DNA of 64,000 nucleotides, taken from contig NC_017668.1 of the NCBI RefSeq assembly GCF_000284515.1, positions 3,906,001 through 3,970,000 of the forward strand, given 5' to 3'. The DNA comes from Halobacillus halophilus DSM 2266 (GTDB lineage: Bacteria > Bacillota > Bacilli > Bacillales > Halobacillaceae). This document shows, piece after piece, positions 5,738-57,854 of the stretch (within the stretch, counting starts at the first letter, position 1; the number at the start of each line of letters is the position of its first letter). The notes under the pieces were generated by a model. It was not told the origin of the DNA. It was given only the letters and a program-made list of their open reading frames with translations, and made no database searches. Position numbers and translations under genes: made by a program.

Positions 5738-6280
5738 AAAGCTCCCGTTACTTGAAGACTCAGTTTCGAGATAAATGGGTTATAAGGAAGGTCCTCCGGG
5801 GGACGATTTCGCTTTCCGTGGGCATGTGGTAAGCTTCCTCAGGCTTCGCCTTCCGGGATCTTACCGATCATGTTCATCCCACAGGAGTCTTCATCGTCCC
5901 CCTCCCGACCTGGCCGAATCAGAAACTCGAAATCCACCAAAAATGCCTACTAAAATTAACGGGAGAGCAAAAGAGTATCTAGCTTATTTAAGTGTACAAC
6001 CCCTGATATATAAGGGGTTAAGGCTGATCCAGAACGATTACTTCTATTATTGAAGGGTCCGTTCACTCCTCAATCATAGGATGGCGGAGGAAACGGCGAG
6101 ACTCCCGCGGGAGAAGGAGCTAGGCGAGACCCCACAGGGAGTGAAACGAGCGAGGAGGCTTGCCAGTTCCCCCGCAGGAAAGCGAGTTGTTTCTGCAGCC
6201 ACCCCCTCTCTTTATTAGCAACGGACGCAGAATATCTCGAAACTGAGTCTTCCACAATCCGGCCCTATTGCGTAATAAGC
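5738..6280 (+). repeat. Interspersed repeat element, copy A (core orientation 1)
   Basis: A non-coding element. The left end AAGCTCCCGTTACTTGAAGA runs into GAAGACTCAGTTTCGAGAT; the right end has the inverse, ATCTCGAAACTGAGTCTTCC, then CGGCCCTATTGCGTAATAAG. The core holds an inverted Y module (about 5800-5930), an AT-rich linker and a forward X module (about 6070-6220). X and Y are related: both contain GACTCC(C/T)GCGGGA-like and GGAAAGCGAG boxes. Similarity with copy D may begin about 13 bp further left and continue to about 6325. No credible gene lies inside. Confidence 0.85.
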
Positions 6281-6429
6281 ATCTTATGAAAAATCAACAA
6301 CACACTATAACAAAGCCCAATTTAATAACAGATCAGCTAATTCTATACTGTAAGATTTATTTTGGCCTTGGCAGACGCAGAGCCTCAGTAATGCGAACCC
6401 TTCTCCAACGACCATAAACACCTGCAAAC

Positions 6430-6455
6430 ATCTCGTAATCGAGTCTTATAGTATG
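6430..6455 (+). repeat. Remnant of a repeat-element right end
   Basis: The text ATCTCGTAATCGAGTCTTATA resembles the element right end ATCTCGAAACCGAGTCTTACA of copy C. It lies about 150 bp past copy A, so another copy may once have stood here. The rest of 6290-6500 shows nothing recognisable. Confidence 0.4.
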
Positions 6456-6502
6456 CTCAGATTAAAAATCTGCTTTTCAAGAAAAGACATAAATAGAATC
6501 TA

Positions 6503-6535
6503 TAAAAAATCCTGCATGAACTAGCATGCAGGATT
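6503..6535 (-). terminator. Terminator of the AbrB-CHAD gene
   Basis: An 11-bp perfect stem (6508-6518 with 6525-6535) with a 6-nt loop is followed on the minus strand by a T-rich run. It lies about 40 bp after the stop codon. Confidence 0.75.
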
Positions 6536-6577
6536 ACTTGATTATTTAGCGGCTTTACAAAGGTAGAGGGTATAAAA

Positions 6578-7798
6578 TTACTGTCTCGAGTATTGTAGGC
6601 TTTCTTGGAGATTCAATTCTTCTACCAGGCTGGAGAGTTCATCCAGCAACGCTTGATTAATGGCTTTTATATGCTTTTTCTTACTGTCGATCTCGTTTCG
6701 GTATTTATTGAACATCTCGAGCCAGTCTTTTAAATCATTTATTTCACCCAGCTGCCTTTGGAAAGACTTAAAGTATTTTGCTTCTTCCTTATAGTCAGAT
6801 GCATAAATTTCATGGAGTGCATTATGAATGTACCTTGTTTTTTTCGAGATAATCCTAACGGAGTGTAAGGCATCGAGCGTTTCTTCATCGACACGACCCT
6901 GTTGGGAAGAAACTTCTAAATATTTCTCCACGGCTTCAGCAAATCCGTTTTCGAATTCCTGAAGCCTCTCGTCTACTTGAAGCGGCAGGACATAATTTCG
7001 AAGCTCCTTATCTTTAAAATGCTCCCACTGCTCCGCAAAAGTATCGTCGATGATTTCAGGCAGTTTATTTTTAAGTTTCTTTTGATGCTTCAGCCTTTTC
7101 TTACCGACCTGATCGCTGAGCTGACGATACACTTCTTCATGCTGCTCCTTAGAAGATTGCTCCGCACGTTCTTCAAACTCCGTAATAAACACATCACGTT
7201 CTCTCACTTTTCCTAAACGTTTATGGGCATCATTTAAACGATCCACTAGTGGATGGCTGTTGACGTGGATAAACTCCAGAATGGCACGGATTTTCCGCCC
7301 ATGGACACGAGCCTGGTGAACACTTTCCTCGTCTTCCTGCTCAAGCGAAAGTTTGCAGTACTCCAGATAGGAGTCAACTAATCCCTGAAGATATTCCCTC
7401 CAGCGGCCTACTACTTGCTCATTTCCATCTCCTAGACAATCCTCACAGATTAATTTCTTCTTAACAGACACCAGCGAATCGGCTGATCCGCAAATTTCAC
7501 AAACCTGAACCTGATCTTGCAATACAGCATAATCATGGTCGAATGTAACATCAATCTTTTTTCCCTGATTCCAGTCAAGCTCGTTTCTATAGTCAGCAGG
7601 AATAAGCAAGCGGCCATAGCTGTCCAATGTCTTAACGGAGTCGCCTTCCTCGCCTGTTACGGAAAGCTTTAATCCTTTTTTATGACTCAAAGGCTTCAGC
7701 ATAAGGTTTTGATTCGATAATTCCAGCTGGTCTCTGATTTCCTTGGGAATCACCAGCCTGCCCATTTTGTCGATTTGCCTTGTGAAAGCTCCACTCAT
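6578..7798 (-). CDS. AbrB-AbrB-zinc ribbon-CHAD domain protein
   Basis: A 406-residue protein with an unusual domain chain. Two SpoVT/AbrB-type swapped-hairpin units come first (TRQIDKMGRLVIPKEIR, residues 6-22, and VKTLDSYGRLLIPADYR, 55-71). A four-cysteine zinc ribbon follows (C100, C103, C118, C121), then a helical CHAD domain (about 135-400) with conserved basic and His positions in VHQARVHGRKIRAI and LHSVRIISKKTRYIH. CHAD domains are known to bind inorganic polyphosphate; AbrB units bind DNA. The fusion therefore suggests a transcription factor or DNA-binding protein that senses or docks polyphosphate; this is inference. It is monocistronic with its own terminator. Domain calls are good, function unknown. 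Confidence 0.85.
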   Translation of the reverse strand: MSGAFTRQIDKMGRLVIPKEIRDQLELSNQNLMLKPLSHKKGLKLSVTGEEGDSVKTLDSYGRLLIPADYRNELDWNQGKKIDVTFDHDYAVLQDQVQVCEICGSADSLVSVKKKLICEDCLGDGNEQVVGRWREYLQGLVDSYLEYCKLSLEQEDEESVHQARVHGRKIRAILEFIHVNSHPLVDRLNDAHKRLGKVRERDVFITEFEERAEQSSKEQHEEVYRQLSDQVGKKRLKHQKKLKNKLPEIIDDTFAEQWEHFKDKELRNYVLPLQVDERLQEFENGFAEAVEKYLEVSSQQGRVDEETLDALHSVRIISKKTRYIHNALHEIYASDYKEEAKYFKSFQRQLGEINDLKDWLEMFNKYRNEIDSKKKHIKAINQALLDELSSLVEELNLQESLQYSRQ

Positions 7799-7951
7799 AA
7801 CCTAACGCCCACCTTTTGAAAGCTTTTATATATGTCATTTCCCAGACTCCAGCACTTCCTAACTAATTTCTAAACATTTTTACAATTTCTTTATAAACCT
7901 GACTCTTACATATATTCCCACAGTACGTGCATCCTATGAATGGAGGTGTTA

Positions 7952-8200
7952 ATGATGCAGCCATACTTATGTCCCAACTGTAAAACCAATCGATCCAGGT
8001 TCAATATCATCGAACAAAAAGCAACATCCGTAAAAATAGATCCAGGGTCAGGTGAAGTGATTAGTGAATATACGTCTGAGAATCTGGATCCTTTTCATGC
8101 CGCTTACCAGGGGCCAGACAAAAAAATCCAATGTGGAGCATGCGGTTTGATCGAAGACGAGAAAACATTTGCCGCTTTCGCCAACTCAAAACCTCTTTAA
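7952..8200 (+). CDS. Small zinc-ribbon protein, unknown function
   Basis: An 82-residue protein transcribed divergently from the CHAD gene. The ATG at 7952 is chosen because GGAGGTG lies 5 nt upstream; an ATG 12 bp earlier would overlap that site. Two C-x2-C knuckles (CPNC near the N-terminus and CGAC near residue 60) should bind one zinc ion. The middle is acidic and lacks membrane or enzyme motifs. I do not recognise a named family. It could be a small adaptor or nucleic-acid-binding protein. Confidence 0.65.
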
Positions 8201-8246
8201 TTGCCCTCAGCGTTCGTTAAAGGGCCCGTGGCATCGTTTTGGCGAA

Positions 8247-9644
8247 TCAATAGATAAATCTCTTTCTTTTGATTGCTGAATAGCTTAGAAGAGCTGCGAG
8301 AGCCAATAGCAGAGGAGTAAAATAAATTCCTCCACCTAAAATGATATAACCTGCTGCTCTAAAAGTATCTGATACTTGAAAGTTTTCTTTGTGCAGAAGA
8401 CGCATGCGATTCGTGAGCTGAGTTCTCATGTCATACAGAGACCAGCTCATTACGCCTGCCAGCTGGACGAATACGACCGAGAAGGAACTGCCAAGTATAA
8501 TGTTGACCGTAAGGAAAGACAGTAGAAGAGGGACTAATCCTGCTATTCCCCAGCTCACATAAGTCGATGTCCACCCCTTTTCATCAATCGGCAGACTATA
8601 GAATATAGGATTCTCTGTAAAATGCGAGCTGAAAATTCCTGCGGCAACTTCTATATACACAAATAACACCACAGGAACACTTACATACATGACCCACTCC
8701 GCTCGTAATGATGGGGCGATGATTACAATGACACCGATTAAGAGCGTTTTCCATGCATACCCTGACGATTCTTTCAAATGGCTTCTCCACAACATATGAT
8801 ATAAGGATTTCACCTTAGTAATTTGGCGTATTGCCCTTCGTTCTCTAAGGTAATTACTTACCAGCCCATACCGTTTAGGAGGTTTGATTGTTATATTCGT
8901 CATCTGACTGACAAACGTGACATTCCATACCTTGGCATCATTGCGCTCCACCACTTTCATCCAGTTAATGTTTTGAGTGCACGCCGGAATAAAGTAAAAC
9001 CGCGCGAGTATCAATAAAAAAGTCAGAATTATGGCTGTTGAATATTGGGCTAAGTTCAACTGATGAATCCATATGCCTGAAGCCCCTAGCAAAACGATCA
9101 CAACTGCCAACAGTCCTGTCTTAACTCTTTTTCTAGCAGAATATAACTTCCACTGGATCGGCGTTAAAAGGGCTATGAAGACGGAATAGATAAAAGCAGC
9201 AGAGAGCAACATGTATAAAGACAAGGGAGTTAATCCACCTAATAATGCTGCCAGGGCGAACGCAACCAATAAGTGAAGCGCGAATTTCTCAGCTGCTAAT
9301 AATAAAAGTATTTTACTTCTGGAGTGGGGGAGCAGACTTAGCTTGAGCTCTGCTGAAGTAAATGGAAGCCCAGGATCTATAAATGACCGCCCAAGCGTAC
9401 GAATTACCAGGATGGACGGAAGCAGCCATAACCACTCTAGTAGAGAGTTTTCCCAGGTATTCATCAGGGGAATGAACCTTTTCATCCAATCCTGAAGCAG
9501 TAACAGAAATACAACAACCATTATTCCTACATAAAAGGCTAACGTTTTGTCGAACGCTAGCTGAAAGGCACGCTGATAAATATCTTTCTTCTTTTTCCAG
9601 CGTTTTTTTCGAATCCAATAAAATACCTGCGTAGTAGAACTCAT
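8247..9644 (-). CDS. ecsB: ABC transporter permease, EcsB-like
   Basis: A 465-residue polytopic membrane protein with some ten hydrophobic segments and a basic N-terminus (IRKKRWKKKKD). Its size, topology and 4-bp overlap with an upstream ABC ATPase of the Ecs type point to an EcsB-like permease. In Bacillus subtilis EcsAB affects protein secretion, the protease RasP pathway and sporulation. The permease is intact, but its ATPase partner carries a premature stop codon, so the transporter may be inactive or use another ATPase. The symbol is by family resemblance. Confidence 0.7.
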   Translation of the reverse strand: MSSTTQVFYWIRKKRWKKKKDIYQRAFQLAFDKTLAFYVGIMVVVFLLLLQDWMKRFIPLMNTWENSLLEWLWLLPSILVIRTLGRSFIDPGLPFTSAELKLSLLPHSRSKILLLLAAEKFALHLLVAFALAALLGGLTPLSLYMLLSAAFIYSVFIALLTPIQWKLYSARKRVKTGLLAVVIVLLGASGIWIHQLNLAQYSTAIILTFLLILARFYFIPACTQNINWMKVVERNDAKVWNVTFVSQMTNITIKPPKRYGLVSNYLRERRAIRQITKVKSLYHMLWRSHLKESSGYAWKTLLIGVIVIIAPSLRAEWVMYVSVPVVLFVYIEVAAGIFSSHFTENPIFYSLPIDEKGWTSTYVSWGIAGLVPLLLSFLTVNIILGSSFSVVFVQLAGVMSWSLYDMRTQLTNRMRLLHKENFQVSDTFRAAGYIILGGGIYFTPLLLALAALLSYSAIKRKRFIY

Positions 9645-10339
9645 TCATGGTTCCCACTTCGGTCTAACGTATGAAATTCATTAACTTCTCCCTCACCCGA
9701 TACCCTGCCATCTTTAAGCATCACATAGACATTGGCCAGCTCTTTTACTTTTTCCAGCTGATGCGTCGTCAGCAGAATACTGTCGCCTTTGTCCCGTCGT
9801 TCTTTTAACAGCTTCTCAAAATAGGCTCCCGCATAGACATCAAGACCCATAAAAGGTTCATCTATTAACAGTACTGAAACGTCCGGCAATAAAGCGCATA
9901 TCGTTTGAACTTTCTGCCTCATCCCTTTAGACAATGATTCCGGATATTCATTCAATTTGTCGGTTAGTTCAAAACCTTTGGTATAGGCAGCTACTTTTTC
10001 TTCAAAACGTTTCTCTGGAATTTGATAGCTCTTTTGGTATAACTGGAAATGTTGATATACGGTCAGCTCACTGAGTAGTAGAGGTTCTTCGGGTATGTAG
10101 CTTAGCTGTCTTTTGTAAGCGGCATAATGCTGATCCTGATCTAAATTATGTATAGAAATTCTGCCCTTTGACTTTTCCCGTGAGCCTAATATGGTTTTAA
10201 TTAGCGTAGATTTGCCAGCTCCGTTATGTCCGACAAGAGCTAATATTTGTCCTTAATGGATAGAAAAAGATACACCTTCAAGGATCGTATTATTTCTGAT
10301 CGTCACTTTACAATCTTCCACGACTAAATTTCTTTCCAT
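9641..10339 (-). pseudogene. ecsA: EcsA-like ABC transporter ATPase with in-frame stop
   Basis: Reading from the ATG at 10339 (ribosome site AGAGGTGA), the frame meets a TAA at 10255-10253 after 28 codons, then continues uninterrupted and in the same frame to 9641. The downstream part has a full ABC ATPase: Walker A GHNGAGKST, signature LSKGMRQK, Walker B VLLIDEP and the H-loop TTHQ. A single A-to-T change (AAA to TAA, turning IHKGQ into IH-stop-GQ) would explain the break. No good restart codon lies before the Walker A motif. Either a recent pseudogene or a sequencing error; the permease overlaps its 3' end. Confidence 0.8.
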
Positions 10340-10402
10340 CCTCTCACCTCTCTTTGCTACCTTTGCGTACGGAACAATTACTGGGAACGTTTCAATTTTT
10401 AT

Positions 10403-10439
10403 GTAAAAATACCCCCTGCCACAACATGGCAGGGGGTAT
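10403..10439 (-). terminator. Terminator of the parMR operon
   Basis: A 12-bp stem ATACCCCCTGCC / GGCAGGGGGTAT (10409-10420 and 10428-10439) with a 7-nt loop is followed on the minus strand by TTTTTACAT. It lies immediately after the parR-like gene. Confidence 0.85.
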
Positions 10440-10442
10440 GGG

Positions 10443-11045
10443 CTAATCATTCATTCGGGAAAGAAAGTCTCCCAGCAGATCATCATCATCTTCATCTTCT
10501 GTTGTTTCTTCGTCCTGTGAATGAATCTCACCTTGTAAGCTATCAAGATTCAGACCATCCAGTTCATCATCGATACTCTTCCATTCTGTTTCAGAATCAG
10601 CATTTGTTTCGTCCTCAGCATGGGCTTCTTGAGTATAATCTCCTAAGGAAGCTTCAGAAGCAGCTGTTTCTTCTTGTAAATAAAGGGCTTCATCTATATC
10701 AAATGCATTGCTGTTGAGCGAAGCCAGTAGAGTGGTAGCACGCACGGGATCCATCATTAGCTGATACAGGATACTTCCTATAAGAGCCTCCGAATGTTCG
10801 TGCTTAATCCAGTTTCTCTGTTCTTTATTTAAAGCCTTAGGCAGTGGGATGGTAACCGTTTCCTTATTCTTAGCGTAAGTCTCGTTCACTCCATCCAGGA
10901 CGAATTGTGCAATCCTGCTTGAAAAATTTCGCCTCTCTGTCTCCTTCAGTTGAGTTAATTGTCTCAATAGATGATCAGGAGTATCCGAGGGGATCCGGAA
11001 CGTAATCGATTGTCCCCTCTCTATCTTTTTCTTTGATTGACTCAT
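10443..11045 (-). CDS. parR: ParR-like ribbon-helix-helix partner of the actin-like protein
   Basis: A 200-residue protein 9 bp after the ParM-like gene. Residues about 10-55 (GQSITFRIPSDTPDHLLRQL onwards) fit a ribbon-helix-helix DNA-binding unit: a beta strand followed by two helices. The C-terminal 80 residues are extremely acidic and end in DDDLLGDFLSRMND. This matches ParR adaptors, which bind centromere repeats through the N-terminus and cap actin filaments through the C-terminal tail. Family identity is inferred from architecture and operon position rather than close sequence recognition. Confidence 0.72.
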   Translation of the reverse strand: MSQSKKKIERGQSITFRIPSDTPDHLLRQLTQLKETERRNFSSRIAQFVLDGVNETYAKNKETVTIPLPKALNKEQRNWIKHEHSEALIGSILYQLMMDPVRATTLLASLNSNAFDIDEALYLQEETAASEASLGDYTQEAHAEDETNADSETEWKSIDDELDGLNLDSLQGEIHSQDEETTEDEDDDDLLGDFLSRMND

Positions 11046-11054
11046 AACATCACC

Positions 11055-12254
11055 TTATTTGGATGAGCCGGTTTTTTGTTCTACTTTTTTACCTTGTTCT
11101 TGATTTTTGCCGTGGTTCTTTTTCTCGTTTTTACGGATGAAATCAGAAATCAATTTGTAGTAAGCATTCGCCATCATCCAGATGCTCTCTTCTTCATCTT
11201 CAAAGAATTCAATATTGAAACCATCCAGTTTGTTGTTAAGTGACTTGATGTAATCCTTCAGAACCGCGGAGCCTCCGCCCACAAAGTAACAGATCTCTGA
11301 TTGAGAGTTTCTCTGCCACACATTTCTTAGGAAACGATACTGCTTCTTAGCAAGTTCAAGAAGAATACGGTCCGTAATATCATGTACGTTAGTACGGCTT
11401 CCTTTAACCATGATGTGATGTCGATCATTTTTCCTTGTAATGATATCCACGACATCACGGCGGCTGTCTAATTCAACTCCATGTTTTCTAAGAATCTCTT
11501 CACGGATCATTTCTAATGATTCAGCTACACCTAGATTGAAGCCCTGCGCTTTATCATCATCAACGTTACGATTTTTAATAACGGCGATATCTGTAGAAAG
11601 ACCGCCGATATCCTGGATTAGAATTTGTTTGTCGATCAATTCTTTGTTAATGATATTCAAATCATTATCCATCACTAAGTTAACGTAGGCAGCAAACCCT
11701 TCCGGATAAACTTTAACCTCATCAAACTTAAGATTTACTTTCATTCCCTGATATTTTGGTGTGACAAGGAATTCAATCTGGTGAACAGACCCAAGAAGGG
11801 AAGAACGGTACCCTACGTCTTTGCCTTCTTTTACTTCACGAAGCGGCAGTCCTGTTCCCAATGTGTAGTTAGCTTCTACCACATTATTCTTCGCCGATTG
11901 TGCATTCTTCTCTCTAACTGCATCCAAAGCAAGCGATGCAAAAAGCATAATAAGTGTCTGATCTTCCTCAGATTTATAGCTGCCTGGATCTAATTCAGTA
12001 GAGTTAGTGGTTTTCGTAGCCAGATTCCCCACACGATAGATAGCATTATTCTCTCTTAAGGCTGGAGAATGCACTCGAATATGTAGATTATCGAGTGGAT
12101 CCTTTTCATCCAGGTCCTCTATACCGATAACAGGACGATCTTCTAAGTCTCTAGCGACCACGTTAGGAATATATAAAGATGAATCTAGTTTTCCAAAGTT
12201 TGCTTTAACTGCATCATTACCAACATCCACAGCTGCAATTCTTGAGTTTGTCAT
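11055..12254 (-). CDS. parM: ParM/StbA-family actin-like ATPase
   Basis: A 399-residue bacterial actin homologue that should polymerise with ATP and push DNA copies apart. Actin signatures are in order: phosphate-1 AAVDVGNDAVKA (residues 7-18), phosphate-2 LIQDIGGLSTDIAVI (212-226) and adenosine loop FVGGGSAVLKDYI (324-336). The C-terminal 25 residues are basic and rich in Lys, Asn and Gln. The ATG has AAAGGAGAG upstream. It heads a two-gene operon with a ParR-like protein, and an iteron array lies upstream at 12355-12523, so all three parts of a type II partition cassette are present, here in a chromosomal-looking setting. Confidence 0.88.
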   Translation of the reverse strand: MTNSRIAAVDVGNDAVKANFGKLDSSLYIPNVVARDLEDRPVIGIEDLDEKDPLDNLHIRVHSPALRENNAIYRVGNLATKTTNSTELDPGSYKSEEDQTLIMLFASLALDAVREKNAQSAKNNVVEANYTLGTGLPLREVKEGKDVGYRSSLLGSVHQIEFLVTPKYQGMKVNLKFDEVKVYPEGFAAYVNLVMDNDLNIINKELIDKQILIQDIGGLSTDIAVIKNRNVDDDKAQGFNLGVAESLEMIREEILRKHGVELDSRRDVVDIITRKNDRHHIMVKGSRTNVHDITDRILLELAKKQYRFLRNVWQRNSQSEICYFVGGGSAVLKDYIKSLNNKLDGFNIEFFEDEEESIWMMANAYYKLISDFIRKNEKKNHGKNQEQGKKVEQKTGSSK

Positions 12255-12354
12255 TAATCAGCTCTCCTTTTAATTACTATAATTTACCTTGCCCTTCTAT
12301 TAATCTATTAGACTCTGCCTTAATAGTCAATGTGCCTTTCGGAGTATTCAATCA

Positions 12355-12523
12355 TGTGTACATGTATACTTTTAATGTACACACGTTTACGTTAAACGTT
12401 TACTTGTATTCAATTATGCGTACATGCTTTCATACCAGTATGTGTACGCTTTTGTAATCTTGCATTCATTCACGTGTACGTTTGTCTTACAAATTGTGTA
12501 CTTGAAAACATTAATGTGTACAC
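12355..12523. repeat. parC: Iteron array upstream of parM (candidate parC centromere)
   Basis: Seven clear copies of a (A/T)TGTGTAC(A/G) type box have GTAC cores at 12358, 12377, 12420, 12444, 12476, 12498 and 12518. Degenerate copies (ACGTTTAC twice) fill the gap near 12384-12402. Spacing is mostly 19-24 bp, about two helical turns, so the boxes would face one side of the DNA. Some are inverted, since GTAC is self-complementary. The array lies 100-270 bp before the parM start, where type II plasmid partition systems carry parC and the operon promoter. Confidence 0.75.
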
Positions 12524-12565
12524 TAGTAGATGTGCAGTAATTAGACATAATATTACACAAAAACA

Positions 12566-12608
12566 CGGACTTAGTTTTGAGTGTGAATTCAAAACTGCGG
12601 ACTTAGTT
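12566..12608. other. Hairpin flanked by an 11-bp direct repeat
   Basis: CGGACTTAGTT occurs at 12566-12576 and 12598-12608. Between and over the copies is an inverted repeat AGTTTTGA / TCAAAACT (12573-12596). Its role is unknown; it lies between the iteron array and the terminator. Confidence 0.4.
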
Positions 12609-12631
12609 GGAGGTGGTGAAGAAATCATAAA

Positions 12632-12668
12632 AAATACCTGTCAGAAAAATGATTTCTGACAGGTATTT
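12632..12668. terminator. Bidirectional terminator after the intracellular protease gene
   Basis: A perfect 16-bp stem (12632-12647 with 12653-12668) has a 5-nt loop and A or T runs at both ends. It follows the minus-strand protease gene by about 25 bp. Confidence 0.8.
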
Positions 12669-12691
12669 CTATAAAAGGGTGTAGGATATTT

Positions 12692-13663: not shown

Positions 13664-13744
13664 TTAACTTCCTCCCCTATTTTGAGTCATGCAAGAGCAA
13701 AGTGATAGACTGATAACTCATGGTGATAGGTAAAGCTTTCCATT

Positions 13745-13772
13745 ATTATATCATTTTTTGTAAGTATCTGAA
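13745..13772 (-). promoter_or_regulatory. Possible sigma-A promoter of ispA
   Basis: On the minus strand TTCAGA, a 16-bp spacer and TATAAT lie about 80 bp before the ispA start. The -10 box is perfect; the -35 box matches 4 of 6 positions. Confidence 0.45.
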
Positions 13773-13800
13773 TATACAGTCAACTATTATTAGACAAGAA

Positions 13801-13849
13801 TTAAAGAAAGCAGGAGAGACTGTTAGGACAGCCATCCTGCTTTCTTTAA
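13801..13849. other. Isolated long hairpin
   Basis: TTAAAGAAAGCAGGA (13801-13815) pairs perfectly with 13835-13849; the 19-nt loop can form a smaller GACTGT/ACAGCC stem. No gene ends next to it on either strand. It could end a small unannotated RNA. Apart from this and the ispA promoter, 13664-14128 shows nothing else. Confidence 0.45.
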
Positions 13850-14320: not shown

Positions 14321-14368
14321 ACATATTAGCTCTTACATCCCTTGAATTCATTCAGTCGTATAGCTGTA

Positions 14369-26397: not shown

Positions 26398-27067
26398 TAG
26401 TATAGGGCCCGATTGTGGAAGACTCGAGTTCGAGATATTGTGTGGAGAAAGAGCTCCAGGGAACGGCTCGCTTTCCGCGGCCCTGCACGATGCAGGGTCG
26501 TTCGATGTTGCCACAGGACGTGGCGATCTTAGTCGAACATCCCTTGTGGTGAGCTTCCTCGGGCTTAACAGCCCTGCGGGATCTCACCGATCATGTTCAT
26601 CCCGCAGGAGTCTTCGCCGTTCCCTTCCGCCCCTTTGGCGATCATGGAGCGCTCAAAATCCTGTACGTAAATGTCTTCATATGAGGAAGGATAACCTATG
26701 TGATCAACGCTTCATACTAAGTCTATACAGGGGGTAAAAACCGCTGTAGAAGCATTTAAGATGATTTAAATTTTTCACTTTTTCTAATGGCAGAGTCCGT
26801 TCGCAAATTTATAGTTGAGTTGGTGGGGAAATGGTGAGACTCCCGTGGGAGAAGGATCTAGGGGAGACCCCACAGGGAGTGAAACGACTGAGGAGGCTCA
26901 TGGTAAAAAGGAGGATCGACTAAAGTCGCCACGTCCTGTGGCAACGTCGATCGACCCTACGTCGTGCAGGGCCACAGGAAAGCGAATTATTTCCCCACCA
27001 ATCCTTATTCATCTAACGTAACGGACCCATTTATCTCGAAATCAAGTCTTCAGCAATCGGGAGCTTA
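26398..27067 (-). repeat. Interspersed repeat element, copy B (core orientation 2, longest copy)
   Basis: The whole element is inverted relative to copies A, C, D and E: the CGGCCC-type end lies at the left and the AAGCTCCC-type end (as GGGAGCTTA) at the right. Read on the minus strand the order is X-inverted, linker, Y, as in copies C and E. Both modules carry an extra cassette of about 65 bp (about 26490-26555 and 26910-26975) with CCCTGC(A/G)(T/C)CGTGCAGGG-type and GCCACGTCCTGTGGC hairpins. The linker has AATGCTTCTA. No credible gene lies inside. Confidence 0.85.
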
Positions 27068-34703: not shown

Positions 34704-35256
34704 AAGCTCCCATTACTTGAAGACTCAGTTTCGAGATAGTTGGGGTCCGTTGCAAACAATAGATGAGGGCGGCTACGGAAACAACTCGCTTTCCTGCGGG
34801 GAACTGGCAAGCCTCCTCAGTCGTTAACACTCCTTGTGGGGTCTCGTCTAGCTCCTTCTCCCGCGGGAGTCTCGTCGTTTCCTCCGCCACCCCAACGATA
34901 TCTAGTGAACGGACCCTGCTATAGGAAACAGGAGCCATACTGCATCAGCCTCAAATGCTTCTATAACAGGGTTCATACACGTAAACAAACATTAAAACTC
35001 AAGGTGGATTATAGATGATCCTGGTTCATTGGAAGGTGTTTATTCAGAGAATTTCGAGCGCTCCATGATCGCAAAGGGGCGGAAGGGAACGGCGAAGACT
35101 CCTGTGGGATGAACATGATCGGTGAGATCCCGGAAGGCGTAGCCTGAGGAAGCTCACCACATGCCCACGGAAAGCGAGTCGTTCCCTGGAGCCCCCTTCT
35201 CCACTCCATATCTCGAAACCGAGTCTTACAGTAACCGGCCCTATTGTTTAATAAAC
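34704..35256 (+). repeat. Interspersed repeat element, copy C (core orientation 2)
   Basis: Left end AAGCTCCCATTACTTGAAGA plus GAAGACTCAGTTTCGAGAT; right end ATCTCGAAACCGAGTCTTAC plus CGGCCCTATTG. Between them lie an inverted X module (about 34770-34905), a linker with AATGCTTCTATAAC, and a forward Y module (about 35070-35200). Relative to the outer ends this core is the reverse complement of that in copies A and D. No cassette insertion. Confidence 0.85.
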
Positions 35257-49310: not shown

Positions 49311-49328
49311 GAAAGCGAGGCTTACACA

Positions 49329-50494: not shown

Positions 50495-50503
50495 ACGGAC
50501 TAT

Positions 50504-50540
50504 AAAGACTCTACTAGTGAAATTCATTAGTAGAGTCTTT
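50504..50540 (+). terminator. Terminator of the ytx-like operon
   Basis: AAAGACTCTACTA / TAGTAGAGTCTTT forms a 13-bp stem, extendable by one GAA/TTC step, followed by ATTTATTT. It lies 10 bp after the last stop codon. Confidence 0.8.
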
Positions 50541-50634
50541 ATTTATTTACAACTACATACATTTATCAGGATCTACTCAGCTCTGATCATTCTTACTAAA
50601 AGGCTTTGCTAAACTTTCGTGATGATTTTAAGGT

Positions 50635-51188
50635 AAAGCTCCCGTTACTTGAAGACTTGATTTCGAGACTTTTGTAAGAATTTGGTCCTGCGGGGGACGA
50701 TTTCGCTTTTCGCAGGCATGTGCTGAGCTTCCTCGGGCTTAACAGCCCTGCGGGATCTCACCGATCATGTTCATCCCGCAGAAGTCTTCATCGTCCCCCT
50801 CCGGACCTGGCCAAATTAGAAACTCGAAACCATTTAAGACATCGACTGGTTAATGAGAAAAAAACATGTGATCACCAGGCTATTTTCATGTTATAACGAT
50901 GTGAAATAGACTGTCATAAAAGCATTTAGAACCAATTAAAAAGGAGAACATTCTCTCTTATAAAAGCGTCCGTTATACTCACGTGGCTGGGTTGGTGGGG
51001 AAATGGGGAGACTCCCATGGGAGAAGGGACTAGGTGAGATCCCGCAGGGAGTGAAACGACCGAGGAAGCTCACCGTTCCCCCATAGGAAAGCGAGTTATT
51101 TCCCCACCAGCCCCTTTCTCATATCGTAACGGATCCAAATTATCTCGAAACTGAGTCTTCCACAATACGGCCCTATTGCGTAATAAGC
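50635..51188 (+). repeat. Interspersed repeat element, copy D (core orientation 1)
   Basis: Left end AAAGCTCCCGTTACTTGAAG; right end ATCTCGAAACTGAGTCTTCC with CGGCCCTATTGCGTAATAAG. The core is inverted Y (about 50690-50815), linker, forward X (about 50990-51115), the same order as in copy A. Similarity to copy A reaches about 13 bp left of the stated start and about 25 bp right of the end. No cassette insertion. No gene inside. Confidence 0.85.
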
Positions 51189-51230
51189 TTCTTATGAAAG
51201 ATCAACAGTAAACTTTAAAAAAGCCTACTA

Positions 51231-51256
51231 AAAAAAAGAGGGCGTGCGCCCTCTTT
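51231..51256 (-). terminator. Terminator at the end of the 57-residue protein gene
   Basis: GAGGGC / GCCCTC stem with a 4-nt loop (51238-51253) overlaps the end of the coding region and is followed on the minus strand by TTTTTTTAG. Confidence 0.72.
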
Positions 51257-51428
51257 ACATGTCATCTGGATCTCGATCCGGTAATCGATCCTTATCGATA
51301 TATTCATTGTCAGACATACCAAATTCTGTGCTATGGTTTTTGAACTGAGCCAGCCGGCCGTTTCTTTTCTCGCCTTTGTTTTTGTTTTCTTTAAACTGAT
51401 TATCCGGTTTTTTGTCCTTCTTACTCAT
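51255..51428 (-). CDS. 57-residue hydrophilic protein, unknown function
   Basis: A small, very charged protein (MSKKDKKPDNQFKENKNKGE start, acidic end DPDDM) with a weak but adequate ribosome site (AAAGGGTGA) and its own terminator at the stop codon. Residues about 24-40 include RNGRLAQFKNHSTEFG. There is no cysteine and no hydrophobic stretch. It lies between repeat copy D and the SDR-type gene. Not recognised. Confidence 0.55.
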   Translation of the reverse strand: MSKKDKKPDNQFKENKNKGEKRNGRLAQFKNHSTEFGMSDNEYIDKDRLPDRDPDDM

Positions 51429-51514
51429 TTGATGATCACCCTTTCAAAATAAATGCCTCTTCGGTTTAGGCTTTGAAATTCAGGGTCTTTTATACATGAG
51501 ATTTGAAAGAAGGG

Positions 51515-52948
51515 CTATTCCGTAATAAAGTTCCTGTTCACTTCTTCCTGCGAACGATCTTCCATCCGCTCTAGATGTTTGCTGAACATGGCCATGACCA
51601 GCAAATGGACTTTGGCCTGCGTGTACTTATAGAAGAACCACGGAAGAGATGGCATGAAATCATGAATAGCCACAATGGCTTCGTGAGTCCCGGGGATCTG
51701 CCTGAACTCCATCCGCCCTCTCATATTCTTCTGGTTATCCGAGAGACCACCACCTGTAATGTAATAAAGCGCACGGTTCGATGTACTCCGCTCATGAGAG
51801 TAACTCATCTTCAGCAAGGACGATTCTGTAAAAGAAAAGCCGATGCGGCAATTTAAATTCTCATCTACGGTTGTGGTAATCCACGGATTCAATTTGTCTT
51901 CCAGCCATTTAACGTAATGCTGGGCCACCCAATTGGCATCTTTACCAACGGGAACAATAATTCGCTGAACGGAACGAACGTCATGCTGGATATCCAGGTT
52001 GGGTGTTTTTTTAGTGCTTTTTCCTTCACTTTGTCTTTCCTTTTCGAGCGCATCCCTTGCTGCTTCTTCAAATGTTATCGACCCCCGGCTGATTCCGGGA
52101 ACTTCATTCTCTGGATGAGTCGTCATCGGATGCGTAAGACTTTCAATCAGCGGATAAGCGATTTCCTTAGGTGCACCGGCAACTAAGGTTAACCATAAGC
52201 GTGATAATCTCACCGTCATAAACGGAAGATCAAACAGCTTCGGGTTTCTCCCCATCACTTGAGCGGTTTTCAGCATCATGGACCGGTACGTCATGACTTC
52301 AGGACCGCCTACATCAATCGACCGGTCTTTTAATTCCTCTTTGTTCACACTTTGATCAAGTGCATTCAATACATCTGGTAAAGCGACAGGATGCGTTTCT
52401 GTCTTGGTCCATTTCGGCAGAAGCATAACCGGCAGTCTCTTCACCAATTTTCTCAAAATTGGAAATGAGGAACCTTTTGGACCTACGATAAGTCCTGCTC
52501 TGATTGTGGTCACCGGAACACCATAAGAACGCAGGATCTGGTCGACTTCCTGCCTGCTTTTTAAATGCCTCGATAAAGATTTAGAACTCTTCGGGATGAT
52601 TCCACTTAAGTAAATGATCTGTTTAACCCCTTGCTTTTTAGCTGCCTGGGCAAAGTTATCCGCTAGAATAACGTCCATGTCCTGAAAAGATCCCTGAGTC
52701 AGCTTAGCTCCAGGCATCATGGAATGCACAAGGTACACGGCAATGTCCGCTCCCTCAAGCCCTTTCTCAGCATCTGCCATAGAGTAGAGGTCACAGGAAC
52801 GCCATGTGACGTTTTCACTGTCCTCTTTATTATCGCCGCTCCTTGATAAAGCAATGACATCCGCGTGATCCGTCAGCTTATCCATTAAATTATTTCCTAT
52901 ATACCCACTCGCTCCCGTAAGAGCAACTACAGGTCTTTGATTAGGCAA
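51515..52948 (-). CDS. Atypical SDR-type NAD(P)-binding protein with C-terminal domain
   Basis: A 477-residue protein with an N-terminal Rossmann fold (ALTGASGYIGNNLMDKL, residues about 9-25) of the atypical SDR/NmrA-like type, including YLSGIIPKSS and RSYGVPVTTIRAGLIVGP. A linker rich in charged residues (about 290-330) leads to a C-terminal domain resembling DUF2867-type or SRPBCC-like modules. It may bind NADPH and reduce or sense a hydrophobic substrate; function unproven. The start is TTG with AAAGGAGAGG 6 nt upstream. Confidence 0.75.
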   Translation of the reverse strand: MPNQRPVVALTGASGYIGNNLMDKLTDHADVIALSRSGDNKEDSENVTWRSCDLYSMADAEKGLEGADIAVYLVHSMMPGAKLTQGSFQDMDVILADNFAQAAKKQGVKQIIYLSGIIPKSSKSLSRHLKSRQEVDQILRSYGVPVTTIRAGLIVGPKGSSFPILRKLVKRLPVMLLPKWTKTETHPVALPDVLNALDQSVNKEELKDRSIDVGGPEVMTYRSMMLKTAQVMGRNPKLFDLPFMTVRLSRLWLTLVAGAPKEIAYPLIESLTHPMTTHPENEVPGISRGSITFEEAARDALEKERQSEGKSTKKTPNLDIQHDVRSVQRIIVPVGKDANWVAQHYVKWLEDKLNPWITTTVDENLNCRIGFSFTESSLLKMSYSHERSTSNRALYYITGGGLSDNQKNMRGRMEFRQIPGTHEAIVAIHDFMPSLPWFFYKYTQAKVHLLVMAMFSKHLERMEDRSQEEVNRNFITE

Positions 52949-53039
52949 AACGATCCTCTCCTTTTTAATTCCATATAAACTGAATTCCCTTTTTTTACCT
53001 GAAAGTAACTTTTGGATAGGCTGGTGTGGATACTCTTTC

Positions 53040-53190
53040 TTAGAGTTTCATTGAGGAGAGAATCAGTTTTGAGATCATTCGAATCCGTTATTAAAAAAGG
53101 GAGGAGTGAACTAAGGTAGCAACTCGCTTTCTTGAGGACATGCATCATGCAGGTCCGCAACTGAGCCTTACAGTATCGTGACCTTCTCTG
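53040..53190 (+). repeat. Degenerate remnant of the repeat family
   Basis: TTTTGAGATCATTCGAATCC, then AACTCGCTTTC, a CATGCATCATGCAGGTC palindrome and AACTGAGCCTTACAGTA resemble element boxes without full ends. Between this and the symporter promoter (53191-53318) nothing else is seen. Confidence 0.45.
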
Positions 53191-53318
53191 TTAAAAGAAC
53201 AAACAAATACACACAGGTGCTTGATTATTAACAGAGCAATTCATGTCGTAAACCCTTTATGGTTATACTCTTACAATAGCCTGTGGCAGCGATCGCAACG
53301 CAATAAGGAGCATTAGTT

Positions 53319-53347
53319 TTGACACATATGATGCGATGTCTTATTGT
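53319..53347 (+). promoter_or_regulatory. Sigma-A promoter of the symporter gene
   Basis: TTGACA, a 17-bp spacer and TATTGT give a strong -35 and a fair -10, about 70 bp before the gene start. Confidence 0.7.
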
Positions 53348-53418
53348 ATTCAGGTAATATGTAGTATTTTAGTCAGGATTAAAACAGGCAACAGCCTGCT
53401 GGATAAAGGAGGTACCCC

Positions 53419-54651
53419 ATGAAATCATTGTGGAACACATACGTGCAAACGTCTCTAATTAAAAAAATCACCGCCGCTCTTATTCTTGGTATTATAATCG
53501 GACTTATTTTTGGAGAGGAAGCTTCTGTTTTAGCTCCTTTTGGTGACCTACTGCTTCGTCTGCTTCGGTTTATCATTATTCCATTAATCTTACTGACCCT
53601 GATTGTCGGGGTAAACCAGACGAATATAGGCAACCTTGGACGAATGGGAGGAAAGGTATTTCTTTACTATTTAGGTACCTCTGCTTTTGCAATTATGGTC
53701 GGCGTGCTGGTCGCCAGTCTTTTCAACCCTGGTACAGGCACGACGCTCGATGGGAGCGAAAGTTTTGAAGTTCCTGAGAATCCAGGTGTTACGCAGGTTC
53801 TATTAAACATTGTACCGGATAATATATTTACAGCCTTCACAGAAATGAATTTGCTCGGGATTATTTTCACAGCGATTGTATTTGGAATTGCGATTTCTTA
53901 TTTACGATCCACTCAAACCTATGGGAATTTAGGCGACCACCTCTATAAAGTAATAGAGGCCCTCAACGAAGCAACGCTTACCGTTATGAAAGGGATCCTG
54001 CAGTATGTACCTATCGGTATTCTTGCTATTATTGCCGAAGTCGTAGGGACTCAGGGAGTCAACACATTGGGGTCTTTAGGAAACTTTATTTTAGTTCTAT
54101 ATATAGCTCTGCTTGTTCAGCTCGCGCTATACACCGTTCTACTTTTTGTTACGAAAAGAAATCCTGGAGGCTTCTTTAAAGAAGCGCGCACCCCTATGCT
54201 TACGGCGTTTGTAACGCAAAGCAGTTCGGGTACGCTGCCTGTAACCTTGAATGCGGCCCATAATCTCGGCATCTCCAAAAGCTTATACGGTTTCAGTCTG
54301 CCTTTAGGGGCAACGATAAATATGGACGGGGCAGCCATTCGGATTGCCGTTTCTGCTGTATTCGCTGCTAATGTCGTTGGAGATCCGCTAAGCATGGCGG
54401 CCATTATTCAGGTCGTTATTGTAGGGACTCTCGCTTCTGTTGGTACGGCTGGAGTACCTGGAGCAGGTATTATCATGATTGCTACGGTCTTTTCTCAAGT
54501 AGGCCTCCCTATGGAAGCCGTGGCGCTTCTAACAGCTGTGGATGTCCTTGTCGGTATGGGCGCAACCGCTCTGAACGTCACAGGAGATCTAGTAGGCTCT
54601 TCCGTGATCAATAAAACGGAGAAAAATCAAAATGCAGAATCAGCTTCATGA
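53419..54651 (+). CDS. Dicarboxylate/glutamate:cation symporter (GltP/DctA family)
   Basis: A 410-residue secondary transporter of the DAACS (SLC1-like) family, about eight membrane helices and two hairpins. Substrate signatures are the serine-rich QSSSGTLPVT and the NMDGAAIR motif in the later part. It should import glutamate, aspartate or C4-dicarboxylates with H+ or Na+. RBS AAAGGAGG with ATG 8 nt later. Its terminator has been split by an IS3 insertion, so readthrough toward the IS and beyond is possible. Confidence 0.93.
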   Translation: MKSLWNTYVQTSLIKKITAALILGIIIGLIFGEEASVLAPFGDLLLRLLRFIIIPLILLTLIVGVNQTNIGNLGRMGGKVFLYYLGTSAFAIMVGVLVASLFNPGTGTTLDGSESFEVPENPGVTQVLLNIVPDNIFTAFTEMNLLGIIFTAIVFGIAISYLRSTQTYGNLGDHLYKVIEALNEATLTVMKGILQYVPIGILAIIAEVVGTQGVNTLGSLGNFILVLYIALLVQLALYTVLLFVTKRNPGGFFKEARTPMLTAFVTQSSSGTLPVTLNAAHNLGISKSLYGFSLPLGATINMDGAAIRIAVSAVFAANVVGDPLSMAAIIQVVIVGTLASVGTAGVPGAGIIMIATVFSQVGLPMEAVALLTAVDVLVGMGATALNVTGDLVGSSVINKTEKNQNAESAS

Positions 54652-54761
54652 ATTTTAAAAAAAGCAGAAAACCCTCGTGTCAGCTCTAGAGTGACCTAGA
54701 AAAATGAGACGTAATAAAACACCTTCAAAGTTGTAATACTACACTTGGAGGTGTTTTTCTT

Positions 54762-55097
54762 ATGGGTAAAAAAGTTCACTATCCCGAAGAAGTAAAAAAG
54801 AAAGTAGTTCAATTAAAATTAGAAGGGAATCACACGAATCAAGAGTTGATGGACATGTTTGGAATTAAGAATAAGTCCCAGATTAAAACGTGGATGAAAT
54901 GGTTTAGAAATGGGGAAAACCACCGGTTTGCTCAGCCTATAGGGAAACAATATTCTCACGGGAAAGGGCCGGAAGACGAGGATGAAATGACCCAACTGAA
55001 GAAAAAGATTGCCTATTATGATATGAGAGAAGAACTGTTGGAAAAGTACCAGGAAATCGAAAGGAAGTGGTTCCAGAAGTATTCATCCAAATCGTAG
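54762..55097 (+). CDS. IS3-family transposase OrfA (helix-turn-helix)
   Basis: A 111-residue DNA-binding protein (VHYPEEVKKKVVQLKLEGNH, then NQELMDMFGIKNKSQIKTW) that should recognise the element ends. The later part is a Leu/Lys-rich helix. It overlaps orfB by 31 bp in the -1 frame, the usual arrangement for making an OrfAB fusion by programmed frameshifting. I did not find a textbook slippery heptamer; AAGAAAAAG near 55000 is the nearest A-run. Confidence 0.85.
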   Translation: MGKKVHYPEEVKKKVVQLKLEGNHTNQELMDMFGIKNKSQIKTWMKWFRNGENHRFAQPIGKQYSHGKGPEDEDEMTQLKKKIAYYDMREELLEKYQEIERKWFQKYSSKS

Positions 55098-55921
55098 AAA
55101 CATTTAAGCACAAGTATCCTGTGAAAGATATTTGTGAATGCTTTGGTATAGCTAAAGCCACCTATTATCGCTGGCGGGGAAAGTCATGGGGACCGTCGGT
55201 CCTGGAGAAGAAGATCATTGAGCTATGTGAAGATCTAAAATTTAGAGTGGGACACCGTATGGTCCGTGACCTCTTACGTAAGGAATACCAAATCAAACTC
55301 AATCGAAATACCGTTCAAAAAATCATGCAGAAATACCATATTCAATGTCGCGTAAAACCAAAGAGACAGTGTTATATCGCAGGGGAAAGTAAGATTGTGG
55401 TACCGAATTATTTAGAGAGAAACTTTACGTCTACGAGACCTAATGAAAAATGGGTAACAGATATTACCTATCTTCCTTACGGAGAGAAAATGTTATATTT
55501 ATCAACGATTATGGACTTATACAACAACGAAATCCTCGCGTACACGATCAGTGATAAACAAGATACGTCCTTCGTATTAGATACGTTGAGGAAAGCTTGC
55601 GAAGGACGTGACGTCTATGAAGTGATCCTTCATAGCGATCAAGGTTCGCAGTACACGTCCTATGAATTTCAAGAAGAGGCCAAAAAAAGAGGCATTATCA
55701 CAAGCATGTCCCGACGGGGGAACTGCTTTGATAATGCCGTCATCGAATCCTTCCACTCCACGATAAAATCGGAAGAATTCAGTCCTCTGGACCGAGGAAA
55801 AATAGATCATCATACCGTACGCTCAAAAATCGATACGTACATGTATTACTACAATTATTGTCGACCTTTTCAAAAACTAAACTGCCAAACTCCAATTGAA
55901 TTCAGAGTAATGGCAGCCTAG
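55067..55921 (+). CDS. IS3-family transposase OrfB (DDE integrase domain)
   Basis: A 284-residue catalytic part with an N-terminal helix region and the rve integrase core. The DDE residues are visible: Asp132 (KWVTDITYLP), Asp191 (LHSDQGSQYTS) and Glu227 (AVIESFHSTIKSE), a D-x35-E spacing as in IS3. No break is seen, so it could be active, if expressed as the OrfAB fusion. Confidence 0.92.
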   Translation: MVPEVFIQIVETFKHKYPVKDICECFGIAKATYYRWRGKSWGPSVLEKKIIELCEDLKFRVGHRMVRDLLRKEYQIKLNRNTVQKIMQKYHIQCRVKPKRQCYIAGESKIVVPNYLERNFTSTRPNEKWVTDITYLPYGEKMLYLSTIMDLYNNEILAYTISDKQDTSFVLDTLRKACEGRDVYEVILHSDQGSQYTSYEFQEEAKKRGIITSMSRRGNCFDNAVIESFHSTIKSEEFSPLDRGKIDHHTVRSKIDTYMYYYNYCRPFQKLNCQTPIEFRVMAA

Positions 55922-55998
55922 GTGTTTTATTGAGTCTTATTTTACTGTGGCACTCCAGCTCATGCACACGAGGGTTTTTACTATCAGTAAAGCGATTT

Positions 55999-57165
55999 TT
56001 ATTCGGATTTTCTTAGTACAGAACTATCCAGTTCTCCAGCTGCTGTTTCTCCCGCAAGGGCTATAGTTAAATCCAGGTCGGCCAGCATGTTTTGTAAAAC
56101 TTCCCGCACACCTCGTTCTCCCGCTACCGCCAGTCCGTACATGCACGGTCTTCCGACAAGTACAGCATCCGCTCCAAGAGACAGAGCTTTGACCACATCA
56201 GCCCCTCTGCGAATCCCGCTATCCATAAGTACAGGGATTTGGTCTCCTACTGCTTCACAAACCTCCGGCAGCGCGTCCAGCGCTCCAAGGGCGCCGTCCA
56301 CCTGCCTGCCTCCGTGATTGGATACAATAATTCCATCCACTCCGTGTTCCAAGGCAAGCTTCGCGTCTTCAGGGTGGAGAATTCCTTTTAACAGAATAGG
56401 AAGGTTCGTATGCTCCTTGATAAAAGTAAGATCCTCCCAGGTTAGTCCAGGGTTTCCGAAGGTCTGCGTCCAATGCATAATGGCTGAAGCCGGGTCCTCT
56501 TCAGGCGTTTTTTCAAGTCGAGAGCGGAATATAGGGTCCGATAAATAATTTCCTACGCCTTCCCCTGCCAGAAATGGAAGATAGACGTTTTTTAAATCCT
56601 TCTCACGCCACGCCATCATGGGTGTATCCAGGGTTACAACGATTGCGGAATACCCTGAATTCTCGGCTCGTTTCAAGAAGCTGGCCGTTACTTCAGGGTC
56701 TTTATTCCAATAGAGCTGAAACCATCGGGGTGCATCGCCCATTGCATCCGCAATTTCCTCTAGCGTTCTTGTGGAAGCAGAACTTGTAATATAGGGGACT
56801 TCCATTTCAGCCGAGGCTTTGGCGGCAGCCAGCTCTCCATCTGGATGGATGATAGACTGGACCCCAATAGGCGCAAGCATCAGGGGCGATGCATATGTAT
56901 GACCGAATAACTCGACTTTTAAATCGCGGCTTTCTACGTTTCTAAGCATTCTCGGCACAATCTTCCATTTCTTGAAGGCCTCAAGGTTGGCATCCATTGT
57001 ACTTTCTCCGCCTGCCCCTCCAGCAATGTAATCATAAGGGCCATCTTCCAGTACCTCTCTTGCGCGTTTTTCCCACTCTTCATAAACGACAGGCAGTCTG
57101 TCTGGATCCGGATCGGGCATCGTCTGGTAGACCTTGAACTGAATCTGATTACCGTAGTTCGACAT
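55999..57165 (-). CDS. FMN-dependent lactate oxidase / lactate 2-monooxygenase
   Basis: A 388-residue alpha-hydroxy-acid oxidase. The FMN barrel motifs are AGGAGGESTMD (N-terminal), APIGVQSI, FQLYW, VTLDTP and the active-site His in SNHGGRQVDGA with VLMDSGIRRG and ADAVLVGRP. Features such as MLRNVESRDL and the long insert FLAGEGVGNYLSD fit the lactate 2-monooxygenase branch. It should oxidise L-lactate with O2. The ATG at 57165 follows AAGGAGGAG by 7 nt. A cre-like box lies about 60 bp upstream. Confidence 0.88.
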   Translation of the reverse strand: MSNYGNQIQFKVYQTMPDPDPDRLPVVYEEWEKRAREVLEDGPYDYIAGGAGGESTMDANLEAFKKWKIVPRMLRNVESRDLKVELFGHTYASPLMLAPIGVQSIIHPDGELAAAKASAEMEVPYITSSASTRTLEEIADAMGDAPRWFQLYWNKDPEVTASFLKRAENSGYSAIVVTLDTPMMAWREKDLKNVYLPFLAGEGVGNYLSDPIFRSRLEKTPEEDPASAIMHWTQTFGNPGLTWEDLTFIKEHTNLPILLKGILHPEDAKLALEHGVDGIIVSNHGGRQVDGALGALDALPEVCEAVGDQIPVLMDSGIRRGADVVKALSLGADAVLVGRPCMYGLAVAGERGVREVLQNMLADLDLTIALAGETAAGELDSSVLRKSE

Positions 57166-57225
57166 CACGCTTCTCCTCCTTATAATTTACACAATATGGT
57201 TATAAACTCAGTTTACCACATCGTA

Positions 57226-57239
57226 TGAATACGCTTACA
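57226..57239 (-). promoter_or_regulatory. cre-like box before the lactate oxidase gene
   Basis: On the minus strand TGTAAGCGTATTCA matches the CcpA cre pattern except one position, 60 bp before the start. It could mediate catabolite repression of lactate use. Confidence 0.5.
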
Positions 57240-57264
57240 ATAGATAGGCTCTGGTAATTAGAGA

Positions 57265-57854
57265 AAAGCTCCCGTTTGTTGAAGACTTGATTTCGAGATA
57301 GTTATGTCCGTTACGTAAGGTGGATAAGGGTTGGTGGGGAAATAACTCGCTTTCCTATGGGGGAACGGTGAGCTTCCTCGCTCGTTTCACTCCCTGCGGG
57401 ATCTCACCTAGTCCCTTCTCCCATGGGAGTCTCGCCATTTCCCCCACCAACCCAGCGTTTTCTTGTGAACGGACCCTGCTAATACGAGAAACGGGAAACC
57501 TGAAATTGTCTAAAATGCTTCTATAACGGGGTTACCCTTTGGACAGACTCGGAAATTAACGTAGGTCGTTCTTCCTCAGATGGAGTATATACGTAAAGGA
57601 TTTCGAGCGCTACATGATCGCAAAGGGGCGGAAGGGAACGGCGAAGACTACTAGGTTAAAAGCGGAAGCACCTTGGTTAGCGGCGTATGAACTGGAGGTA
57701 CAAGGAAGTTCGACTAAGATCGCCACCTCGTGTGGCAACGTCGAACGACCCTGCGTCGTGCAGGGCCACGGAAAACGAGCCGTTCCCTGGAGCCCCTTCT
57801 CCATCCAATATCTCGAAATCGAGTCTTCCACAATCCGGCCCGTTCGTATTATAA
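57265..57854 (+). repeat. Interspersed repeat element, copy E (core orientation 2, cassette in Y)
   Basis: Left end AAAGCTCCCGTTTGTTGAAG; right end ATCTCGAAATCGAGTCTTCC with CGGCCC. The order is inverted X (about 57330-57450), linker with AATGCTTCTATAACGGGGTT, and Y (about 57620-57800). Y carries the extra cassette of about 65 bp (about 57705-57765), and part of Y has been replaced by unrelated sequence (about 57650-57700). Confidence 0.82.

Follow-up and report, generated by a model that had tools for sequence, protein, structure and literature searches.

Intergenic hairpin elements of Halobacillus halophilus as probable non-coding cassettes of an integron-like system with split recombination sites

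The window, a stretch of 64,000 nucleotides from Halobacillus halophilus DSM 2266, contains five elements of a common build (Table 1). Each element consists of END1 (AAGCTCCC plus 7 nt), the arm GAAGACTNNNTTTCGAGAT, a core, the inverted arm and END2 (7 nt plus CGGCCC). The core is composed of two hairpin modules, X and Y. Double compensatory changes affect 12 of 42 pairs in X and 10 of 40 pairs in Y, with 32 of 66 X modules and 29 of 56 Y modules as input. The initial annotation had reported five copies in 64 kb with two distinct outer ends and inverted arms, and it had placed Y next to the AAGCTCCC end in A and D and X next to it in B, C and E. All five copies are present where they were reported, the ends and arms are as described, and the placement of the modules is confirmed. 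Rfam recognizes the Bacillaceae-1 RNA (RF01690) in B and E, as well as in the stretches L190 and L206 outside the window, and finds none in elements A, C and D. The RNA is only an optional sub-hairpin of the X and Y modules.

Table 1. Elements of the window, their parts and Rfam matches (positions in the window).
Feature	Position	Strand	Remark
Element A	5739..6265	+	order Y-X
A, END1 tip	5739..5753		
A, arm	5754..5772		
A, Y hairpin	5788..5912		
A, X hairpin	6058..6225		
A, arm'	6234..6252		far end
A, END2 tip	6253..6265		far end
Element B	26405..27066	-	END1 at 27066; order from END1 X-Y
B, Y module	about 26443..26650		
B, X module	about 26816..27000		
Bacillaceae-1 RNA RF01690 in B, Y side	26482..26548	-	Rfam, 65.2 bits
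Bacillaceae-1 RNA RF01690 in B, X side	26904..26970	+	Rfam, 66.1 bits
Element C	34704..35241	+	order X-Y
C, X module	34744..34912		
C, Y module	35055..35206		
Element D	50636..51173	+	order Y-X
D, Y module	50683..50812		
D, X module	50975..51130		
Element E	57266..57841	+	order X-Y
E, X module	57328..57456		
E, Y module	57604..57652 and 57700..57803		in pieces
Bacillaceae-1 RNA RF01690 in E, Y side	57698..57764	+	Rfam, 63.9 bits

The genome of the window carries about 200 copies of such elements; the initial annotation had extrapolated hundreds per genome from the five copies. The units are intergenic and mostly non-coding. The arm pattern (up to two mismatches) has 228 + 264 matches in this genome compared to 6 + 6 for the reversed pattern, and END1 and END2 have 201 and 149 matches, respectively, with 0 for the reversed controls. 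Because the matches far exceed the reversed-pattern controls, the abundance of arms and ends is not due to chance. Elements were parsed from 121 sequences of this genome, namely the window and 120 stretches chosen for holding an end, and the parsing of the ends tolerated up to four mismatches. All 100 elements shorter than 1.6 kb with both ends parsed have one END1 and one END2, and their median length is 538 bp. The triplet is CCC at each end in 91 of these 100 elements, a count to be read with the fact that the parsing favoured CCC. Among 41 genomes scanned with up to one mismatch, arms are frequent only within the same bacterial family. In 22 genomes of the genus, the number of arms lies between 1 and about 400, and the 16 genomes outside the family hold 11 arm matches in total compared to 9 in the controls. 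A literature search limited to open PMC papers brought up no entry on this element family.

Arms also occur back to back. In a stretch of the same genome (L156), two arms are arranged as arm'-AAGTAAAGGGCAGGATTGTG-arm, and the site nearly equals what a fusion of an END1 tip and an END2 tip through a single GGG would give. Two-arm sites have the form arm'-7-GGGCAG-7-arm, where the 6 bp between the halves of arm plus 7 nt are GGGCAG in most. The two-arm pattern (up to three mismatches) is found in 23 of the 25 genomes of the family and in none of the 16 others, with the reversed control found in 0 of 41. Some of these matches are looser, and three of the seven places in the genome of the window are END1 overlaps without the GGGCAG centre. 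A genome from another genus of the family (G023; L252-L266) has the pattern at 20 places, and at the two loci read, L258 and L261, back-to-back arms are found where a dispersed element ends on one side, beside the outer repeat. A site outside the family of the pattern (L268:2016-2057 in G040, from another family) has a lone arm after CTTC and a 20-base stretch with GGGCAA, and resembles a two-arm site with the left arm lost.

Two-arm sites head arrays of simpler sites. A total of 25 two-arm sites at 24 loci in 12 genomes were inspected, with 20 of the loci picked among the matches listed. On the GGGCAG side, 23 of the 25 are followed by one or more one-arm sites (arm'-7-GGG), and 19 of them by at least two. 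This array side holds 71 one-arm sites across the 25 two-arm sites, and the opposite side holds none of mirror polarity. A looser count on both strands gave 101 + 89 one-arm sites, with 15 of wrong polarity compared to these 190, and takes in two spurious sites. The one-arm sites are separated mostly by single ORFs, and in 52 of 62 cassettes the longest ORF is directed away from the two-arm site. Of ten cassette proteins picked by hand, nine have a Pfam match, and the types include GNAT, methyltransferase, Nudix, hydrolase, peptidases, RDD and dehydrogenase. Four arrays that were compared have two short stretches in common. A 140-aa cassette protein is 99% identical between arrays of G000 and G001, and another of about 91 aa is 84% identical between arrays of G000 and G010. 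Such recurrence of single cassettes across the arrays of different genomes fits mobile cassettes, and the cassettes may thus move between arrays. Rfam searches of six sources matched only a group II intron and the Bacillaceae-1 RNA. The intron contains a reverse-transcriptase-like ORF (L302:16907-19570, L306:12656-15322) and is no more than about 0.1 kb away from a one-arm site in arrays of two genomes. Its flank also occurs beside END1 of the element in L132.

We suggest that the dispersed elements are probably non-coding cassettes bounded by split att sites, in a tyrosine-recombinase system that resembles an integron without being a canonical IntI integron. Each element would be bounded by the halves of a single site, with END2 as flank-GGG-CCG-7 nt-arm and END1, read outward, as arm'-7 nt-GGG-flank. 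Joined in a circle, the halves would form arm'-7-GGGCCG-7-arm, which is one base off the two-arm centre GGGCAG. Excision would join both ends into a circular two-arm site, and insertion at the GGG of an AT-rich socket, roughly CTTATTAAACTAAA-GGGAGC-TTTACTTTAA, would create END2 and END1. The first cassette of an array and every dispersed element are built alike, with a GGG half site and its arm on one side and arm'-7-GGG on the other. The model would involve a circular intermediate with strand exchange in the GGG triplet, and a 280-aa recombinase might serve as the enzyme.

The gene for this XerD-like tyrosine recombinase lies in the genome of the window, and the two-arm site of L156 follows 103 bp after it. 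In G000, G002 and G008, the recombinase is located 80-103 bp from a two-arm site. The initial annotation had envisaged a recombinase gene linked to the copies; such a gene was found beside arrays of the same sites, but not beside the copies in the window. The best families for the protein are XerA, XerD and XerC. The best models, NF040815 (218, cut-off 220), XerD and XerC, all score under their cut-offs, and the IntI model TIGR02249 reaches 95.6 bits compared to a cut-off of 265. The best match in PDB is XerD, and IntI4 was aligned over residues 209-267 only. The position of the gene next to two-arm sites in the three genomes would make the protein the natural candidate enzyme. A recombinase at least 84% identical is present in just 3 of 41 genomes though 23 match the two-arm pattern, and tblastn detected no relative within about 6 kb at 18 of 20 two-arm loci. 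More distant relatives at 54% (G002) and 53% (G021) identity have no arm at up to two mismatches and no inverted repeat in the 600 bases downstream. Among 28 viral loci with relatives, the 25 that were scanned all lack an arm at up to two mismatches. Because few of the genomes with the pattern have a close copy, the enzyme behind the same att-site system could instead be a host recombinase of the Xer type or a different integrase, with the 280-aa protein being incidental. Another possible enzyme is a 406-aa integrase-like ORF about 0.9 kb from a second two-arm site of the same genome, which is 24% identical by tblastn to the recombinase. In contrast, each of the three genomes having the 280-aa gene at 84% identity or more carries it next to a two-arm site, and an incidental role seems somewhat unlikely. 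The 406-aa ORF is accompanied beyond this two-arm site (L435:6379-8135) by a 167-aa ORF, which is metalloprotease-like by eye.

Orthologous loci indicate which parts change between species. The flanks of 100 elements were compared to 182 foreign loci, and 20 pairs match on both sides. The foreign loci were mostly chosen for an exact END1, which biases the set to occupied loci. An X/Y element is present in both genomes in 14 of the 20 pairs, and the other six were dropped due to a relative without an X/Y element or a gap that was too long. Core order is reversed at eight and the same at six of these 14 loci. Locus 19 was left out of further comparison because END2 was unparsed in the relative, leaving 13 loci. 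At these, the END1 flank is identical at 456/585 positions (0.78) compared to 2912/7020 (0.415) in non-orthologous pairs, and the END2 flank at 374/611 (0.61) compared to 0.44. Inside the element, orthologous identity is no higher than non-orthologous identity, with 53/91 (0.58) compared to 0.63 at the END1 tip, 14/39 (0.36) compared to 0.43 at the arm centre, 0.41 compared to 0.46 in the adjacent core, and 57/91 (0.63) compared to 0.65 at the END2 tip. All 13 cores score higher against another locus of their own genome than against the orthologous locus. Because the flanks keep locus identity and the tips, arms and core do not, the change point lies within AAGCTCCC (8 bases) on one side and GGGCCG (6 bases) on the other, outside the arms. 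Both sequences are nearly invariant everywhere, have GGG/CCC in common and contain the central GGG of the two-arm site. Between species, a unit is usually replaced by a different one at or beside the joining site. The crossover would be bounded to the invariant 8 + 6 bases, with GGG itself as the putative point of exchange.

A less biased check traced the gene beside each of A to E in 22 genomes. Both ends are retained in five comparisons, all of them with G001 or G019, which are close relatives. Four of the five have the same order and one, D in G001, has the opposite order. Four differ in the END1 tip, and in all five the core scores higher elsewhere in its own genome. At loci B and C, the flanks are 0.85-0.90 identical and the cores 0.55 and 0.71, as expected of replacement. 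Loci D and E are indecisive, with adjacent flanks at 0.52-0.78, cores at 0.63-0.76 and flanks no better kept. The rare tip GATTGCT is retained at locus B in G001. At B and E in G019, the likeness is 89-91% over stretches of 170 and 187 bases, hence the units there may be partly retained. The remaining cases comprise relics, a tandem containing masked bases and loci cut off by a contig end. Among more distant relatives, only G002 has a two-armed element of the usual size, at B and in opposite orientation. In the vicinity of some loci, for example B in G007 and G004, there are arms without a partner or isolated X/Y modules. In G021, two closely spaced arms form a pair near C. A search for empty sockets in 22 genomes yielded no convincing case. 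Three hits in the genome of the window were set aside, with L247 and L251 being END2 variants and L250 doubtful. In another Halobacillus, the locus orthologous to L192 (L009, about 5763-6391) contains a degenerate END1 and GGGCCGTGCTC tandem repeats, with no element.

Homologous recombination or gene conversion among the repeats could likewise replace cores, without any site-specific enzyme. The likeness among copies, the resemblance of cores to other copies of the same genome and the swap of one tip in some near-identical cores are all consistent with such exchange. However, conversion tracts should end anywhere in the homologous stretch of about 500 bp, whereas the tips and arm centres at the 13 loci, pooled, have no locus memory on either side. 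Conversion also leaves the two-arm sites and arrays unexplained, and we regard it as improbable.

The initial annotation had proposed that the core inverts between the arms while the ends stay fixed. Both core orders relative to the ends indeed occur, with 53 X-Y, 44 Y-X and 3 mixed among the 100 elements (six calls depend on a single module). Flanks adjoining the ends are alike between copies, as that proposal implied. Order is independent of the tip allele, with ATTACTT split 12:12 and GTTTGTT found with 11 X-Y and 8 Y-X cores. A tree of 76 cores, excluding 24 of the 100 as beyond its length and order limits, needs six order switches, three of them forced by well supported branches, compared to 25 for shuffled labels. 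Core order relative to the tips has thus switched, but rarely, between three and six times. Neither these switches nor the presence of both orders with the same tip fits one ancient split into separate families. Phase-variable inversion, where a recombinase would use the inverted 19-bp arms to turn the core around locus by locus, would account for the nearly equal orders regardless of tip, the switches on the tree and the reversals at 8 of 14 orthologous loci. Near-identical cores should then occur in both orders, yet 14 of 15 such pairs share one order and the last is mixed in both members, while the best opposite-order pair reaches just 90% identity. Orthologous tips and cores differ even where the order is the same, and whole units including tips and arms are replaced with a change point outside the arms. 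In-place inversion was therefore rejected as the main event, and phase variation of this kind is quite improbable. One tip differs between some near-identical cores (pairs 32/72, 0/88 and 56/85), indicating that exchange happens inside the unit too. Under the split-site model, the order switch would be a second and rarer process, probably by recombination or template switching between the inverted arms.

Some elements are enclosed by a longer outer repeat starting with GGCTCTGTTAAA on both sides, such as A and D (flanks at 5695-5738 and 50592-50635). Around other elements this repeat is decayed or missing, and it was rejected as the mobile ends since it is present in some copies only. A further alternative is that the elements are MITE or REP-like units moved by a transposase of the DDE or Y1 type, in which case CCC would be a 3-bp target duplication and GGCTCTGTTAAA would mark the outer terminal repeats. 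This would suit the hairpin nature of X and Y and the copies with such flanks on both sides, but is highly improbable given that a target duplication should vary where CCC dominates both ends, that the outer repeat is missing in many copies among the 60 of 100 viewed and that the same tips and arms recur in two-arm sites.

The split-site system shares key features with integrons, which combine the IntI recombinase, a primary attI site and arrays of attC cassettes. A recombinase gene lies beside the primary site in three genomes, followed by an array of cassettes that mostly contain a single ORF and each have one direct-repeated site, and the ORFs are mostly directed away from the primary site. 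Differences include a recombinase under the cut-off of IntI models that matches only part-length, sites with a 19-bp arm and GGG centre, the lack of a nearby recombinase relative in most inspected arrays, and about 200 non-coding two-arm units dispersed outside arrays. Canonical attC sites carry the R boxes RYYYAAC/GTTRRRY. The consensus of 30 one-arm sites reads ...CGCCCCC-7 nt-GAAGACT..., and by eye no attC R boxes are present at the crossover. The system would appear to work like an integron, with sites that, judged by eye, look unlike canonical attC. We do not file it as an integron because the recombinase fails the IntI models. Complete integrons are described as very rare in Firmicutes, where a single one, in Limnochorda pilosa, is reported along with a few clusters that lack an integrase (PMC9024848). 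Firmicutes are also named among the phyla with integrons (PMC8618304). The comparison suggests that the system is a relative of the integron not yet described, from a group with hardly any known integrons. On the sequence features at hand, arguments are about evenly balanced for an undescribed integron class in Bacillota. In such a class, a XerD-like integrase would be combined with two-arm primary sites, which head several arrays in each genome, and with one-arm sites for the cassettes. About 200 dispersed non-coding units would each carry a split primary site and act as portable landing pads, turning over and holding their core in either order. An arm/GGG system across a Bacillota family, if true, would suggest that a different recombinase is able to build cassette arrays. 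As a natural system with hundreds of copies, it would make site choice, cassette exchange and hairpin cargo measurable from genomes.

SE elements reportedly nest in Gammaproteobacteria. They have imperfect 19-bp inverted end repeats, a 6-bp spacer at the junction, tyrosine recombinases and several chromosomal insertion sites (PMC9345347). The inverted 19-bp repeats around a 6-bp centre in two-arm sites resemble this junction, but SE elements carry their own recombinases (SE-6945 is about 7 kb). The units here hold no recombinase pair of their own because a median of 538 bp is too short for two.

BIME/REP sequences are intergenic, multi-copy palindromic repeats, and IS1397 inserts in BIMEs. The elements here likewise have intergenic multi-copy hairpin modules with nested insertion sequences, but are bounded by split att sites. 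Nested insertion sequences were found in eight elements of the genome (L129, L131, L136, L181, L200, L203, L206 and L226). Five are 1437-bp copies that are IS3-like by eye and lie inside X or Y, and three are 1554-bp copies with a DDE_Tnp_1 transposase. The hairpins look as if they were insertion hot spots. Autonomous versions among the long elements were dismissed, as all eight longer ones are explained by nested insertion sequences with no other large ORF. X/Y-like hairpin modules without arms occur in arm-poor genomes (L348, L369, L372, L379 and L400), hence the hairpins may belong to a wider repeat family than the att-bounded units.
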